Notes under the pieces: generated by a model
Told to the model about the DNA's origin: nothing
The model's input: only the letters and a program-made list of their open reading frames with translations
Database searches by the model: none
IMG/VR virus record: IMGVR_UViG_3300009008_000100
Span: 1 to 38,773 of that record
Direction: 5' to 3' (one strand)
Source of the DNA: a virus
Length of the DNA: 38,773 nucleotides
In this document: positions 22,550-29,833 of the stretch, piece by piece
Position numbering within the stretch: the first letter of the stretch is position 1
Layout of the letters: every line of letters begins with the position of its first letter
Program-made: the position numbers and the translations under genes

Positions 22550-25363
22550 ATGGCGACAAAGCGATTTGGCCCCGTTCTGGGAGCGGGAACGGCGGTGGTG
22601 GAGAAGAGCGGGGCCAACCCGATCTTGCCCGCTTCCCTCGGGAACGCGTGCTACACCGGGAAGGTGGAGAAGGGCGAGGCAGGGAGCCTCATCCGCACCA
22701 CTTCCTTCGCGGACTTCCAGAAGAAGTGCGGACGGGTGCTGGACGGCTTCCCGCTGTCCCTGAACGCCCAGCACTTCTTCGAGGGTGCCGGCAAGACCGT
22801 CAACCTGTTCGTGATGCCGGTGACCGACGACAACGAAGACTACGCCCAGTGGGAGCTGTGGAGCCGCCACATGGGTTCCTACTTCTTCACGGACCACCCG
22901 AGCTACGATGAGACCCCCACCAAGCTGGCCACCTTCAAGGCCAGCCACGGCGGGCGCTGGTCGGGGCGCCAGTGGACCTACCGTGACACCCTGGGCGGCG
23001 CGGGTTCGATCCTCGCCAACTCCATCAACACGGGCGTGACCTCCTGGAACAAGGACCGCTGGGTGTACGGCTTCATCCACCTGATCGGGCCGGACAAGGT
23101 GTACCCCGTCATCGGCTCCAGCGTGACGGGCGAGCTCACCATCCCGGCCACCTACAACGCCGCGGCCGACTGGGCCCTGTACGCAGCCGGGGGCGGCGCC
23201 AACCTCCAGTACGCCCTGACCCTGCTTCCCGAGATGCTGGACAGCGGGGAGATGGTCGGACTCACCATGGAGGTGAAGCCGGGGGAGAAGGACAGCGACA
23301 ACCTGTTCGGCGTCTACGTCTACTACAACGGCGACCTCCTGTACAAATTCCCCAACCTGTCCTTCGACACCGCCAGCCCGTACTACATCGACACGGTCAT
23401 CAACCAGGCTGAGGGTGTGGACGACATCGAGGTGGACATCGACTGGACGGGCGGGCACAGCGTCCTCTACATGGGAGCGAACCACGTCCATGAGGCGGTC
23501 GCGTACGGCGCGACCGGGGCCAACAAGGTTGGGGTCATCCCCGCCAAGATCCTCAACTACACGGGGACCGGGAACGGCACCGTCGCAGCTTGGGACTTCA
23601 CGGGCCTCACCGACTGTACCCCCACGGACATCCGGATCCTCATCACGGGCGGTGGCGCCACCTTCAACGTCGAGGACCCCGCACACCACGGTACGCTCCC
23701 CAGCGGCACGGTGGGCGTGGCCTATCCGGTCAACGGCTGGAAATCCCTCCCTGGCTTCACCGTCACGGCGGGGACGATCCCGTTCACGGACGGCGATGAG
23801 TTCAACGTGCGCATCGACCCGCTGCCCTGGTGGTACGGGCTGGAGTGGTCCCCGACCATGAGCCCCTCCACTTACAACCAGCGGCTTTCGCGGAAGTGCT
23901 ACCTGTACGAGATGGACCCCTCGGTCCCTGCGATGACCGCCGCCAAGCGCCACCTCATAAGCAAGTTCACGGCGACCACCATCGAGGTGGAGGGCACGCT
24001 CAAGAACAGCATCCAGATGCCGACCGCCGCGGTGATCACAGGCGCAGAGGTCACCCTGCCCCTCACCTTCGGGGCTGGCGTTGACAACATGTTCAAGGTG
24101 GCCACACCGACGACTCCCGCGGGCGTCACAGGGACGGCCATCGGGGTCGCGCTCGCGACGGGCGCAGCGGTGGTCCTCGCACTGAACACGGCGTGGGGCC
24201 TCGCTGGTGGTGCTGGGGCACCCTTCACCTGGACCGACACGGACCTGGCCCTCGGCAAGGGGACCGTCACCTACACCGACACCGAGGGGCTGCTCACCGC
24301 CAAGGGGATGGACTCCTGGGGGCAGGTCCTCGCCCAGGCCACCGACTGCTACACGGTCATCGGCTTCACGGTGGGCGCTTCCAAGACCTATGGTATCCCT
24401 GGTGCCCGGCTCGTGGTCTCCAGCTATGACGTGATGGAGGGTGGTGAGGACGGCTTCGCGGACATCGTGGACACGGACTACACGAACCGCCTGAGCCCGC
24501 TCTCCACGCCGCTCCTCCAGGCCCTGGGCCAGGACTACGGGCTCATCAAGTGCGCCGCACCGGGCGTCTCAACGACGGCTGTCCAGAAGGCCGGGACCTA
24601 CATGGCCGAGGAGCTCAACCTCCAGTGGCGCCGGGACCTGCCCGACTCCATCAACGATGGCGAGGATGAGTCCGCGGTTCAGGACCACATCGACAACACC
24701 CTGGGGCGGTCAGACTTCGCGGTCGTGACCTTCCCCACCTCTGCGATGATCGCAGACCCGTTCGGATCCTCGGGTCTGTACCGGACCTCGCTCACGGGGA
24801 TGATCCACGGGGACGAGGCCAAGGTGGCCGTGAACAACGGGGGCTACCACAAGGCAGAGGCAGGGGTCGAGACCAACCTGCCGAAGATCGTCAAGATGCC
24901 CTGGGCCTCCAAGGACTGGGAGCCGGATCAGGAGATCCTGAACCCCCGCGGGATCGGGATGCTGATGAAGAAGTCAGGGCGGTGGATCCTCTGGGGCGAC
25001 CGTACCAACTACCTGAACACGGAGTGGGTGTGGAAGCACCAGCGGGAGCAGATGTCCCACTACGAGCACGTGCTGATGGCCAACTTCGACTGGATCATCT
25101 ACGCACTCCCGAGCAAGACCCTCTGGGCCAAGGCGGCTGCGGTCCTCCGCGCCTACTTCACCCCTGAGTGGGACAAGGGTGCCCTGGACCCGGATGTTCC
25201 CTTCGATACGGCGTGTGTGATCGCCGTGGACGACTCCCTGAACACGGACGCAACCGAGGCGACGGGCGACCTGTACGCCGCTGTGGAGCTGAAGCTGGTC
25301 GGGGTGGTCGAGCGATTCGTCATCATGATGTCCAAGGCGGGCATCTTCGAGAAGTCCGCGTAA
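22550..25363 (+). CDS. Tail sheath protein, unusually large
   Basis: The product is 937 residues. The N-terminal region (NACYTGKVEKGEAGSLIRTTSFADFQKKCG) and the C-terminal part (LNPRGIGMLMKKSGRWILWGDRTN to the end) carry the conserved contractile-sheath core, with LLQALGQDYGLIKCAAPG in between. Sheath proteins usually have about 350-700 residues, so the middle third, roughly residues 180-520, is extra beta-rich material probably exposed on the outside. The sheath contracts to drive the tube through the envelope. ATG 22550 follows GGGAGGA. Codon use is strongly C/G-ending. Confidence 0.88.
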   Translation: MATKRFGPVLGAGTAVVEKSGANPILPASLGNACYTGKVEKGEAGSLIRTTSFADFQKKCGRVLDGFPLSLNAQHFFEGAGKTVNLFVMPVTDDNEDYAQWELWSRHMGSYFFTDHPSYDETPTKLATFKASHGGRWSGRQWTYRDTLGGAGSILANSINTGVTSWNKDRWVYGFIHLIGPDKVYPVIGSSVTGELTIPATYNAAADWALYAAGGGANLQYALTLLPEMLDSGEMVGLTMEVKPGEKDSDNLFGVYVYYNGDLLYKFPNLSFDTASPYYIDTVINQAEGVDDIEVDIDWTGGHSVLYMGANHVHEAVAYGATGANKVGVIPAKILNYTGTGNGTVAAWDFTGLTDCTPTDIRILITGGGATFNVEDPAHHGTLPSGTVGVAYPVNGWKSLPGFTVTAGTIPFTDGDEFNVRIDPLPWWYGLEWSPTMSPSTYNQRLSRKCYLYEMDPSVPAMTAAKRHLISKFTATTIEVEGTLKNSIQMPTAAVITGAEVTLPLTFGAGVDNMFKVATPTTPAGVTGTAIGVALATGAAVVLALNTAWGLAGGAGAPFTWTDTDLALGKGTVTYTDTEGLLTAKGMDSWGQVLAQATDCYTVIGFTVGASKTYGIPGARLVVSSYDVMEGGEDGFADIVDTDYTNRLSPLSTPLLQALGQDYGLIKCAAPGVSTTAVQKAGTYMAEELNLQWRRDLPDSINDGEDESAVQDHIDNTLGRSDFAVVTFPTSAMIADPFGSSGLYRTSLTGMIHGDEAKVAVNNGGYHKAEAGVETNLPKIVKMPWASKDWEPDQEILNPRGIGMLMKKSGRWILWGDRTNYLNTEWVWKHQREQMSHYEHVLMANFDWIIYALPSKTLWAKAAAVLRAYFTPEWDKGALDPDVPFDTACVIAVDDSLNTDATEATGDLYAAVELKLVGVVERFVIMMSKAGIFEKSA

Positions 25364-25381: not shown

Positions 25382-25828
25382 ATGGGAGTCAAAGGCAAGC
25401 TGAAGCCCGATCATATCCCGCAGAACAAGTATGAGCTGCTGGTGGTCGGCATCCCCATTCCGCTCACGTTCGTGACGGTGGGCGCCATCGAGGAGGAGCT
25501 GGACATGGTGGACCTCCCTGATCGCACCCGTGCGTCGGGCGGGAACACCAAGCCCGTCGAGTTCACCGGATCCCTCCCCATGCACCACCTCGCGGAGCAG
25601 GCGGCGATGGAGCTGTGGTACACCGAGGGCAAGGAGCCCGTCAGCGCCACCTACAAGAAGGTGGGTACGCTGGTCCTCCAGTCCATCTCCGGTGCGCTGA
25701 TCCGCAGCTACTCCCTCGATGGCCTCTGCGTCACCAAGCGGGGCCTGCCCGAGTTTGGGATGGAGAACGAGGGTGAAGCGGCCATGGTCGAGTGGTCCTT
25801 CAGCGCCGACCGCGTCAACCCGCTGTAA
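25382..25828 (+). CDS. Tail tube protein
   Basis: The product is 148 residues, following the sheath as in nearly all myoviruses. It starts at ATG 25382 after AGGAGGAG. It is beta-rich with GxTYKKVGTLVLQS, SYSLDGLCVTKRGLPEFG and a final strand ending EWSFSADRVNPL, a T4 gp19/XkdM-type tube pattern. Hexamers of this protein stack to make the DNA channel. Its codon use is strongly biased, as expected for a very abundant part. Confidence 0.88.
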   Translation: MGVKGKLKPDHIPQNKYELLVVGIPIPLTFVTVGAIEEELDMVDLPDRTRASGGNTKPVEFTGSLPMHHLAEQAAMELWYTEGKEPVSATYKKVGTLVLQSISGALIRSYSLDGLCVTKRGLPEFGMENEGEAAMVEWSFSADRVNPL

Positions 25829-25888: not shown

Positions 25889-26860
25889 ATGACCCGCAAG
25901 AACGCACCTGAGAAGAAACCCAAGCACAACCCGGTAGATCCCGACGCCCAGGGGCCCACGCCCGAGGACGGATCCGAAGCTCAAGGGGCTTCTACCAACC
26001 AGCCTGACGCTGAGGCATCGCCACGTGTCGTGACCCGCTCGATCTCCGAGTGGAGGAACAAGCTGGCCATCGGCGTGAGGACAGGGGAGGGCCCACCCAA
26101 GCGTGACTTCGGCTTCGTGGACTACTACACCTTCCACGAGCGCTGGATCCAGCAGCAGCGCCGGAAGCAGAAGGGGATCACCGAGGCCACCATCGCCACG
26201 ATGCTCGCGGCTCGGATGCTCACCCACCTGGGGGACCAGGAGTTCCACATCCCCCAGGATGAGCGGACGATCCCCCAGGACTTCAACCAGCGGATGCTGG
26301 CCGTCGAGTCCCTGACCCAGGACGACTTCCTCACCATGTGGGTCAACTTCCGCATCGAGGCTATCGGGACCGACCTGGAGTTGGACCTGATCTGCCCGCG
26401 CTGCGGTCGGGAATTCGGGTGGGTGTCGGACCTCAGCACGATGGACGTCAAGGTGGTTGGCGACGAAGCAGCCACCCAGTGGGAGGTCGAGCTGGAGACG
26501 GGTGTACCCTATCCCGAAGGCCGGGCAAAGAGGCTCCTTGTGGACCGCCCGCGCTGGAAGATGATGACTGAGGCAAGGCCCGATGGAACCGATGACTTCG
26601 GGACCATCAAGGCCCTGTCGATGAAGCACGGTATCGTCAAGCCGCTCGATGTCGAGTCGAGGACCGTGCTGACGCTGGATCGGCTCGACATGGTCCGGAA
26701 GCTGGATCTGGAGACGTTCACCGCGGAGATGGACGCCCACTCTGCGGGCGTGGACTTCGCGTTCGACTCCCAGTGTCCTCGCTGTCGCCACGATTGGACC
26801 CATATCGTGGACTGGACCGTTGACAGTTTTTTCTCAATTTCCTCGGGGTCTGCCCAGTAG
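25889..26860 (+). CDS. Tail assembly chaperone, short form
   Basis: The product is 323 residues. Residues 1-50 are charged and Pro/Lys-rich. A helical core follows (DFGFVDYYTFHERW, ATMLAARMLTHLGDQ), and then two zinc-knuckle pairs, CPRCGREF and CPRCRHDW. These last features resemble T4 gp26-type baseplate/chaperone proteins. Position between tube and tape measure is that of the gpG-type chaperone that coats the tape measure during tail building. The stop codon lies 8 codons after a -1 slippery heptamer. The start at 25889 follows GGGGAGGATGAG. Confidence 0.85.
   Translation: MTRKNAPEKKPKHNPVDPDAQGPTPEDGSEAQGASTNQPDAEASPRVVTRSISEWRNKLAIGVRTGEGPPKRDFGFVDYYTFHERWIQQQRRKQKGITEATIATMLAARMLTHLGDQEFHIPQDERTIPQDFNQRMLAVESLTQDDFLTMWVNFRIEAIGTDLELDLICPRCGREFGWVSDLSTMDVKVVGDEAATQWEVELETGVPYPEGRAKRLLVDRPRWKMMTEARPDGTDDFGTIKALSMKHGIVKPLDVESRTVLTLDRLDMVRKLDLETFTAEMDAHSAGVDFAFDSQCPRCRHDWTHIVDWTVDSFFSISSGSAQ
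26827..26833 (+). promoter_or_regulatory. -1 programmed frameshift site T_TTT_TTC
   Basis: In the chaperone reading frame the heptamer is T TTT TTC, a perfect X_XXY_YYZ site. Eight bases after it, CTC (26842-26844) and GGG (26846-26848) can pair with CCC (26853-26855) and GAG (26860-26862), a small stem that could stimulate slippage. The -1 frame after the site stays open for 62 codons. Confidence 0.8.
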
Positions 26861-27021
26861 AGCACTTGAGGGCTCAAACCTTCTATCTGCTCTACGGCTC
26901 CGAGGGAGGAACAGGGATGACTCCGGAGTACATCGACAGGATGAGCCCGGAGGAGCGGACCTGGTACTATGAGGAGCTGGTTGACGTGAACCAACGAATC
27001 GCCAAGAAGCTGAAGAAGTAG
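26833..27021 (+). CDS. Frameshift-encoded C-terminal part of tail assembly chaperone (long form)
   Basis: Reading in -1 after the slippery site gives 62 residues, so the long form would have about 377 residues (25889-27021). The extension contains a QTFYLLYGSEGG segment and MTPEYIDRMSPEERTWYYEELVD, then a KKLKK tail, the usual look of the T part of G/GT-type chaperones. The segment ends at TAG 27019-27021, one base before the tape-measure ATG, so translation of the long form would couple to that gene. An independent start at ATG 26917 after GGGAGGAACAGGG is possible and would give a 34-residue protein. Confidence 0.78.
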   Translation, partial: LNFLGVCPVEHLRAQTFYLLYGSEGGTGMTPEYIDRMSPEERTWYYEELVDVNQRIAKKLKK

Positions 27022-27022
27022 G

Positions 27023-29833
27023 ATGGCTGCTACCACACAGCTAGGATTCGGCATCCGTGTCGGCTGGAACGACAACGCCGTCAAGCGAGGGGTGACCCGC
27101 CTCCAGGCGTCGCTCAAAGCGGTCCAGGCACAGGCTCGCAGAGTCTCAGCGGGGCTACAAACCGCGGGGGCGGGGCTCCGGAACCTTTCGATGGCGGGGG
27201 CGGTTGTCGGGGTCGGGCTCGGTGTGGGGATCAAGACGGCTGCGAATTTCGAGCAGTCCATGGCTGATGTCAAGGCCATCGTCAAGCGGACCTCGACAGA
27301 TGTCGCAGGGGATATGGCCAAGATCGAGAACCAAGCCATGGCCCTGGGTGCTACCACCAAGTTCACGGCATCCGAGGTCGGGTCAGCGCAGCAGGAGCTA
27401 GCACGGGCGGGCTTCAAGACGGGGGAGATCCTTGCCTCCACCACGGGCCTGATCCACCTCGCGGGCGCGGAAGCAGGGCTGAGTGTCGAGCGTGCCGCGG
27501 AGATCAACGCCGCAGCGCTGAACCAGTACGGGCTCGCAGCCGATCAGTCAGGGCGGGTGTCCGACGTGCTAGCGGCTACCTCAGCTGCCGCAGCCACCAA
27601 CGTCGAGGCGCTTGGGGAGTCCCTCAAATATGTTGGTACTGAGGCATCCCAGATGGGTGAGTCCATCGAGGATACCAACTGGATGCTCGGGAACATGGCG
27701 AACGCAGGCATCAAGGGGTCCTCCGCAGGGACCAGCTTGGCCAACGCATATCGCAAGTTCCAGAAGGTGTCGGGGAAGGGCCAGAAGTACCTTGATGAGA
27801 TGGGGATCAAGCTGACCGATGCCGAGGGGAATTTCAGGGGGATGCAGGCCATCATGCCTGAGCTCCAGCAGGGGCTCGGGAAGTACCAGGGGAACCTGAA
27901 GAAGTCAGCTGTTCTCCTGGAGCTGTTCGGCATCCGTGGTAAGCGCGCCGTTGCCGCCGTCATCGGCCAGATGGAGAATTCCCCAGAGAAAGTCAAGGCC
28001 GTCGATGACGCCATCAAGAACGCTGCCGGCGCAGCCAAGATGATGAGTGAGACCCGCCTCGATACGGTCCAGGGGCAGTGGACGCTGCTCAAGAGCGCCG
28101 TGGATGGGTTCTTCATCTCCACATTCAAGCCAGGGCTCGGGGGCCTCAAGGAAGGGCTCCGCACCATCACCAATCTCATCGGGGATGCGACGGTTGCCTG
28201 GAGGGTGCTATCCGGCCAGAAGCTGTCCGACGAGCAGACCGCCCAGATCTCAGGTATCAGCGCTGGGACGTGGTCATTCGTTCACGGGCTCCGGCAGGGT
28301 ACAGCCCTGGTCAAGCAATTCTTCGGTAGCATCAAGGCGGGCTTCCAGTCCATCGGGACGATGTTCGGGAACACCTTCGGGGCTGGGGGTGTGAGCACCC
28401 TCACGAAATGGGGGACGGTCCTGGTTGGGATCACCCCAGCAATCGCAGGTGTGGCCGCGGGCGCCAAGGTCGCGTTCTTCCTCCTGTCCGGATACGCCAA
28501 GGTGTTCACAGGGGCGCTCCAGGCAGTCCGCGGGGCGGTCGGGATGCTGCGAGTCGCGATGCTGGCCCTGGCTTCGGGGCCTGGTCTCGTGCTGGCGGGG
28601 GTCCTTGGGGGGATCGGCCTGGTGATATCCTCGCTGAAGAGCGACACTGAGTCCTGGGGAGAATTCGCCACGAGGATGTTCACCCAGATCAAGGACGTGA
28701 TCACACGGTTCATGGAAGGGGCGATGGGGCCTCTGCGCCGAAGCTGGGAGTTGTTCAAGACCACCATCAAGACCGCCTGGGACGAGTCCGTGCGCTACCT
28801 CCAGACCGTGTATGGCGGGCTCGACATGTTTGAGGGGAAGGCAGAGGATGTCGGGAACACAGCCGGATCCGCGCTCGGGGCGATCCTCCAAATGGCTGGC
28901 GATGTCCTGGGGACGATCATCAAGGTCTCAGCCACCATCGCATCGATCCCGATGATCCTCAAGATGGGCTTTGAGGATGCCTCCGACTTCGTGACTGACT
29001 TCATGCTCGGGGTCGTGGTAGCGGGGGCCAACATCAAGGGGAACATGCTCCACAACTTCGGGCTGATCTTCGACTTCTTCAGCGACAAGATGCTGGACAT
29101 GAAGGTCGCGCTCGTGAACATCGGCATCTCGGTAGCCAATGTAGTCAAGGGCGTCATCGGTAAGATCATCACATTCGTAGGCACAGCCCTCCAGAAGGTC
29201 CTTGATCCAATCGCAGAGGTTGTCTGGCACGTGGACGAGGGGATGGCGAGGACCCTCTGGAACGCGGGCTCCAATATGGCCGCGGCCGGGGGAGAGATCG
29301 GGAAGGGTGATGACCTGAAGACCGCGGCTGACTATGGTGGCTACTCGGCACCTCGGGCACCGCGGAAGGATGAGACGATTGAGTCCATGTTCGGCTCCTC
29401 AGCGGCACAGGACCGATCCCGCAAGAGGGACCGGGAACGCACCCGCCAGGAGGAGAACAGGATCAACAACAAGCGAATCGCAGCGGAGCGAGCCGCTGCC
29501 GCCGCCCAGGAGAAAAAGGGCCAGGAGCTACGAGATCAGTGGTCCAAGACGGCACCTGTTCTTGAGGCCAAGTGGAACGCCCTCAAGGAGCGTGTTGCCG
29601 GGGCGCGGGCCGCGAGTGCTTCCCCCACCGTCAAGAACGAGGTGGACGTCAACCTCAAGGATGAGCGCTGCGTCAAGGCCGACGTCAACCTGGACGGGGA
29701 GAAGATGGCCACAGCGATGGCCAAGGTGGGCGAGGAGCAGGTGGCCCGAGCCGGTATCACCCTGTCGGCGTGGCAGAAGAGGCAACTGGCGGAGGGCTCC
29801 AGCATGACCGCTGCTCTGAAGGCTGGGAGGTAA
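27023..29833 (+). CDS. Tail tape measure protein, TP901 type
   Basis: The product is 936 residues. Residues 50-340 hold the phage TP901 core (FEQSMADVKAIVKRTS, ALGATTKFTASEVG, AGIKGSSAGTSLANAYRKF). Hydrophobic stretches near residues 465-500 and 513-535 are the usual membrane-active part. Residues about 790-840 are a charged coiled coil. Its length sets tail length, it blocks the channel, and it is ejected first on infection. ATG 27023 follows the chaperone extension by one base and has only a weak site (AAGTAGG), so it depends on coupling. Confidence 0.9.
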   Translation: MAATTQLGFGIRVGWNDNAVKRGVTRLQASLKAVQAQARRVSAGLQTAGAGLRNLSMAGAVVGVGLGVGIKTAANFEQSMADVKAIVKRTSTDVAGDMAKIENQAMALGATTKFTASEVGSAQQELARAGFKTGEILASTTGLIHLAGAEAGLSVERAAEINAAALNQYGLAADQSGRVSDVLAATSAAAATNVEALGESLKYVGTEASQMGESIEDTNWMLGNMANAGIKGSSAGTSLANAYRKFQKVSGKGQKYLDEMGIKLTDAEGNFRGMQAIMPELQQGLGKYQGNLKKSAVLLELFGIRGKRAVAAVIGQMENSPEKVKAVDDAIKNAAGAAKMMSETRLDTVQGQWTLLKSAVDGFFISTFKPGLGGLKEGLRTITNLIGDATVAWRVLSGQKLSDEQTAQISGISAGTWSFVHGLRQGTALVKQFFGSIKAGFQSIGTMFGNTFGAGGVSTLTKWGTVLVGITPAIAGVAAGAKVAFFLLSGYAKVFTGALQAVRGAVGMLRVAMLALASGPGLVLAGVLGGIGLVISSLKSDTESWGEFATRMFTQIKDVITRFMEGAMGPLRRSWELFKTTIKTAWDESVRYLQTVYGGLDMFEGKAEDVGNTAGSALGAILQMAGDVLGTIIKVSATIASIPMILKMGFEDASDFVTDFMLGVVVAGANIKGNMLHNFGLIFDFFSDKMLDMKVALVNIGISVANVVKGVIGKIITFVGTALQKVLDPIAEVVWHVDEGMARTLWNAGSNMAAAGGEIGKGDDLKTAADYGGYSAPRAPRKDETIESMFGSSAAQDRSRKRDRERTRQEENRINNKRIAAERAAAAAQEKKGQELRDQWSKTAPVLEAKWNALKERVAGARAASASPTVKNEVDVNLKDERCVKADVNLDGEKMATAMAKVGEEQVARAGITLSAWQKRQLAEGSSMTAALKAGR

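Follow-up and report, generated by a model that had tools for sequence, protein, structure and literature searches.

The window (the whole 38,773-nt stretch of viral DNA analysed here) carries a tail assembly chaperone gene of the T4 gp26/gp51 type in which, judging from sequence comparison, a conserved -1 programmed frameshift very probably yields both forms of the chaperone from one gene. An earlier, sequence-only reading had proposed a G/GT-type -1 frameshift beside the tape measure gene. That reading stands as the best one, with support now from eight homologues, an excess of RNA structure and homology to a known chaperone family. The features referred to below are as follows:

22550 to 25363, plus strand: tail sheath, 937 aa (phrog_23, E 4e-14).
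25382 to 25828, plus strand: probable tail tube protein, from its position between sheath and chaperone; no family match; bait for homologous loci.
25889 to 26860, plus strand: chaperone gene, 0-frame short form (TAC-N, 'G'), an ORF of 323 aa, PF12322/T4 gp26-type.
26827 to 26833, plus strand: slippery heptamer T_TTT_TTC, in frame with ATG 25889 and in the same register in eight homologues.
26827 to 27021, plus strand: -1 frame extension (T, gp51-like tail), ending with TAG 27019-27021; peptide conserved in nine sequences.
26838 to 26908, plus strand: predicted stimulatory stem, 26838-26850 pairing with 26896-26908, with inner helices between.
26917 to 27021, plus strand: internal ATG with upstream GGAGG in the sequence, a rival start that would give a 34-aa T peptide alone.
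27023 to 29833, plus strand: tape measure protein (PF10145/TIGR01760).

The in-frame heptamer near the end of the chaperone gene, as first described, holds at these coordinates. The 0 frame ends with ..GAC AGT TTT TTC TCA ATT TCC TCG GGG TCT GCC CAG TAG, leaving eight zero-frame codons between the heptamer and the stop at 26858-26860. After the heptamer the -1 frame has 62 open codons (64 with both slipped Phe codons) and its TAG is one base apart from the tape-measure ATG, again as had been read from the letters; the predicted GT product is of ~376 aa. The presence of the heptamer alone says little, because TTTTTTC, of which this is the sole copy when both strands of the window (62% GC) are counted, is expected 0.54 times by chance. 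For the window alone, a -1 frame of equal length would be open by chance with a probability of about 0.06 (shuffling). None of the 11 other Phe-Phe pairs in the window has the T_TTT_TTC form.

A homologue hunt with the tail tube protein as bait, and then with a chaperone profile, gave eight IMG/VR loci (L002, L003, L004, L005, L008, L010, L012, and L013), whose chaperones are 23-31% identical to that of the window. The window chaperone as a single-protein query had no match among the viruses of IMG/VR or the phages of GenBank, scanning bacterial and archaeal genomes by alignment turned up no relative, and tblastn of the L010 and L013 proteins gave no match in phages. All nine family members, including the window, bear T_TTT_TTC in frame at the same Asp-x-Phe-Phe (D-x-FF) site, at GC contents spanning 43-67%, and the same form is seen in 2 of the 33 other Phe-Phe pairs of these loci. 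The -1 frame is open in 9/9 members, against 1-9 stops in each of the remaining two frames. The -1 peptide can be aligned in all eight homologues (FFRxFFPxxxxxxLREExFxLTY..G....DI..M...R.WY..RL.K over the nine sequences), and its conservation starts at the heptamer, upstream of any ATG. Past the stop, nucleotide identity by -1 codon position is highest at position 2 (60%) and lowest at position 3 (34%), a measure biased in favour of coding, as the alignment was protein-based. Such a comparison of the -1 frame across homologues had been suggested along with the sequence-only reading, which took relatives lacking both slip site and open -1 frame as evidence against itself; all nine members keep both.

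The small stem noted at first 8 bases downstream of the heptamer understates the predicted structure: within 80 nt it is replaced by a 13-bp stem that starts 4 nt after the heptamer (-37 kcal/mol). This stability stands out against dinucleotide shuffles (z -2.85) and synonymous shuffles (z -3.3); the 50-nt fold alone is not unusual, and the excess shows at 80 nt. For the family, mean z is -2.3 to -2.5 for folding segments placed at +7, and also at the overlapping +12, versus +0.2 to -0.6 at seven offsets elsewhere. The excess survives shuffling confined to synonymous codons in the -1 frame (family mean z -2.0 for 56 nt and -2.3 for 81 nt), and hence is not a by-product of the peptide. Several other members have a stem from about the same start point with different 3' partners, L008 being an exception. 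A search of Rfam gave no match. An upstream Shine-Dalgarno-like stimulator, of the kind enriched in cyanophages, was looked for in the window and not found.

Profile comparisons and a modelled fold place the window chaperone in the T4 gp26/gp51 family (PF12322). Its own match to PF12322 (T4_baseplate; E 0.002, 18.1 bits) is below the curated cut-off of 24.5, which homologues exceed at 29.6-46.7 bits (44.8 for L002 and 46.7 for L010); L003 and L004 are over it in a six-frame search, and 7/9 family members match at E 0.01. Over 207 columns the family profile aligns by hhalign with a gp26 profile built from T4 plus 13 further phages (Prob 97%, E 6e-11), and this alignment ends with the Phe-Phe of both. 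The best BFVD viral matches of an AlphaFold2 model of the window chaperone (pLDDT 77) include T4-like baseplate hub assembly proteins, with E down to 2e-14; fold and sequence searches in the PDB returned no solved relative. It had been described as a zinc-knuckle chaperone unlike the usual G. Its family is indeed different from that of lambda G, but profiles and fold match argue for a chaperone of the PF12322 T4 gp26/gp51 type and not for an odd version of G. The protein has two CxxC pairs (C172..C175 and C296..C299), of which the second aligns with the CPEC of gp26, and they presumably bind zinc. Both pairs are lost in L013 (2974-3786), where slip site and tail are kept; L013 is also the sole member to match P2-type Phage_TAC_7, below cut-off.

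The tail on the long form was compared with gp51. T4 gp26 and gp51 both belong to PF12322 (E 9e-64 and 4e-52) and are, on this similarity, paralogues, gp51 having ~48 extra C-terminal residues relative to gp26. The -1 peptide of L002 matches phrog_634, 'baseplate hub assembly catalyst' (gp51), at E 6e-4. At family level, the -1 peptide aligns with the 'gp51' tails of cyanophages (hhalign Prob 96%, E 3.5e-9), scoring 46.5 where the top one among 100 column shuffles reached 12.6, and the cyanophage tails in turn match T4-type gp51 at its C terminus (Prob 96-97%). The link between the window tail and T4 gp51 runs through the cyanophages, the direct match of the window-family tail with the T4-type gp51 tail being weak (31 columns, Prob 43-80%). 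The predicted long form of the window ends with M.P.ER..Y. The MSPEERTWYYEEL motif, taken at first as typical of a chaperone tail, is a real tail motif, which we can refine as the conserved end of the gp51-type tail, with M.P.ER as its common form.

The chaperone gene is directly upstream of the PF10145/TIGR01760 tape measure in the window, and adjoins the tape measure in relatives too. Taken as a whole, the virus does not fall within the T4 superfamily, its tape measure being PF10145 and not PF25671; it also has an XkdF-type protease (PF14550) and the P2-like PF04717 and PF09684. The tail sheath is unusually long: the best sheath profile covers only residues 480-925, with ~480 N-terminal residues outside the match. 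Elsewhere in the window we observed a PIG-L family de-N-acetylase gene (1090-1794, E 3e-18) and a 163-aa protein (630-1121) with a CxxC..CxxC stretch weakly like ribosomal protein L37e, below cut-off.

In cyanophages, gp26 is accompanied by a short 'gp51' annotated as a gene of its own. In cyanophage-type IMG/VR loci, T_TTT_TTC stands in frame one codon before the gp26 stop in 80/80 and the tail is open in -1 in 79/80, with 3/271 other Phe-Phe pairs taking the same form; these loci are related, so that the counts are not independent events. TTTTTTC is present in S-SSM5, P-SSM3, P-TIM68, P-HM2, and KBS-M-1A, and also in Stenotrophomonas YB07, Delftia phiW-14, and Desulfovibrio 7757. HTVC008M, Melnitz-1, Ochrobactrum OC, and phiM12 have TTTTTTT, Rhizobium N34 has TTTTTTG, and Vi01, Vibrio K351, and Cygsa01 are without the heptamer. 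S-SCSM1 (L019 4671-4874) and Bacillus phage SP-15 (L119 35606-35929) have a T run, yet their gp51-type tail lies in +1 when gp26 is taken as frame 0; this might reflect a +1 or -2 shift, a tail with a start of its own, or an indel. In the deposited records of cyanophages and one Pelagibacter phage, the genes named 'gp51' or 'baseplate hub assembly catalyst' begin at differing ATGs inside the -1 frame (L103:1917-2099, L020:4732-4869, L113:1944-2036, and L107:1953-2090), which suggests that a gp26-gp51 fusion tail was annotated in shortened form. Upstream of the slip site in the cyanophage-type loci (L023-L102), conserved Glu-Gly codons favour GAG GGG (GAG 48/80 vs 30% background; GGG 27/80 vs 7.5% background), resulting in a Shine-Dalgarno-like GAGGG ~9 nt before the heptamer. 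A similar arrangement is that of dnaX, with a Shine-Dalgarno-like element upstream of its slip site.

We infer that slippage takes place, and likewise its rate and the chaperone action of the products. Most ribosomes would pass T_TTT_TTC and stop at 26858-26860, producing the gp26-like short form (G). A minority, held up by the stem ~4 nt downstream, would slip back one base, with both Phe tRNAs re-pairing on TTT TTT, and would go on to 27021, producing the gp51-like long form (GT). If these forms act as lambda G and GT do, numerous short copies and a few long ones may line the tape measure encoded by the following gene and bring in tail tube subunits, to be displaced as assembly proceeds.

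It is unlikely, though conceivable, that both processes coexist in the window phage, the frameshift giving GT and internal initiation giving free T, with a GGAGG that the stem would mask until a ribosome moving through unfolds it: the 3' arm of this predicted stem does include or adjoin the GGAGG, yet the GGAGG/ATG start is found in the window only and is not conserved in the family. We consider very improbable that T is a separate small gene starting at ATG 26917 behind GAGGGAGG, with no frameshift and open frames that merely abut. The GGAGG lies 7 nt before this ATG, but the ATG has no counterpart at the aligned place in L002, L004, L005, and L012, and the -1 frame is conserved from the heptamer on, before any ATG. 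Cyanophage records do annotate 'gp51' as a stand-alone ORF, although with starts that differ widely among phages (30 to 61 aa), and while phages without the heptamer (Cygsa01, Vi01) may use a separate T gene, such a gene would need no conservation of a heptamer that is nonetheless invariant. That the six-T run and open frame arose by chance, or through a sequencing error in a single gene, as the chance values for the window alone (0.06 and 0.54) might allow, borders on the impossible given a site common to 9/9 family members and 80/80 cyanophage-type loci.

The logic of the programmed -1 frameshift that we favour is already known from earlier papers on T4-like chaperones and poly-T slips. T4-like phages use gp26/gp51-type chaperones, some with poly-T frameshifts, according to Vladimirov, Gautam & Davidson (2022, Virology 566:9-15) as cited in PMC10885494 and PMC12846349, and some have, in place of a frameshift, one short gene plus a long copy that is fused (PMC10885494, citing Vladimirov). 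A two-gene form is found in phage 0305phi8-36 (PMC2147016), and gp26 and gp51 have been listed as hub assembly chaperones, gp51 being essential and of a function given there as unknown (PMC3004832). Nor is it new to read T4 gp26 and gp51 as the short and the long form of a chaperone, as later papers cite Vladimirov et al. for it. Our analysis adds this phage group, the pairing with a PF10145 tape measure, and an RNA stem tested against synonymous shuffles. We lean towards a broader view in which the T_TTT_TTC frameshift in PF12322 chaperones is ancestral across contractile phages, T4 having lost it by gene duplication into gp26/gp51, and many genes annotated as stand-alone 'gp51' are frameshift tails. 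If true, this would span phages of cyanobacteria, Pelagibacter, Rhizobium, Stenotrophomonas, and Desulfovibrio, as well as the environmental PF10145 myophage group.

Compared with T4 gp26/gp51 (PF12322, phrog_150/phrog_634), the 0-frame protein of the window aligns with gp26 to the C-terminal FF and the second form bears a gp51-type tail. In T4, however, genes 26 (short) and 51 (long) are separate and divergently transcribed, no frameshift is needed, and the tape measure is PF25671, whereas that of the window is PF10145. Cyanophages (Kyanoviridae), with gp26 and a short 'gp51', share the in-frame T_TTT_TTC at the gp26 end, followed by a -1 tail and then the next tail gene. They differ in a slip site one codon before the stop, compared to eight in the window, in the upstream GAGGG that is enriched in cyanophages and absent in the window, and in the next large protein, which is not PF10145 in KBS-M-1A (the one phage examined). 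Lambda G/GT and P2 E/E+E' are established -1 frameshifts, the latter slipping at T_TTT_TTG; they have the same logic, position and -1 direction as the window, while the window chaperone differs from them in protein family. Lastly, PMC12846349, with reference to Vladimirov, describes poly-T as a known slip signal of these chaperone genes, and the -1 frameshift that it reports at GTTTTT in Vandenendeviridae/Andersonviridae resembles ours in its poly-T slip and in a -1 frame that is conserved, open and followed by the tape measure, in a lineage other than that of the window phage.
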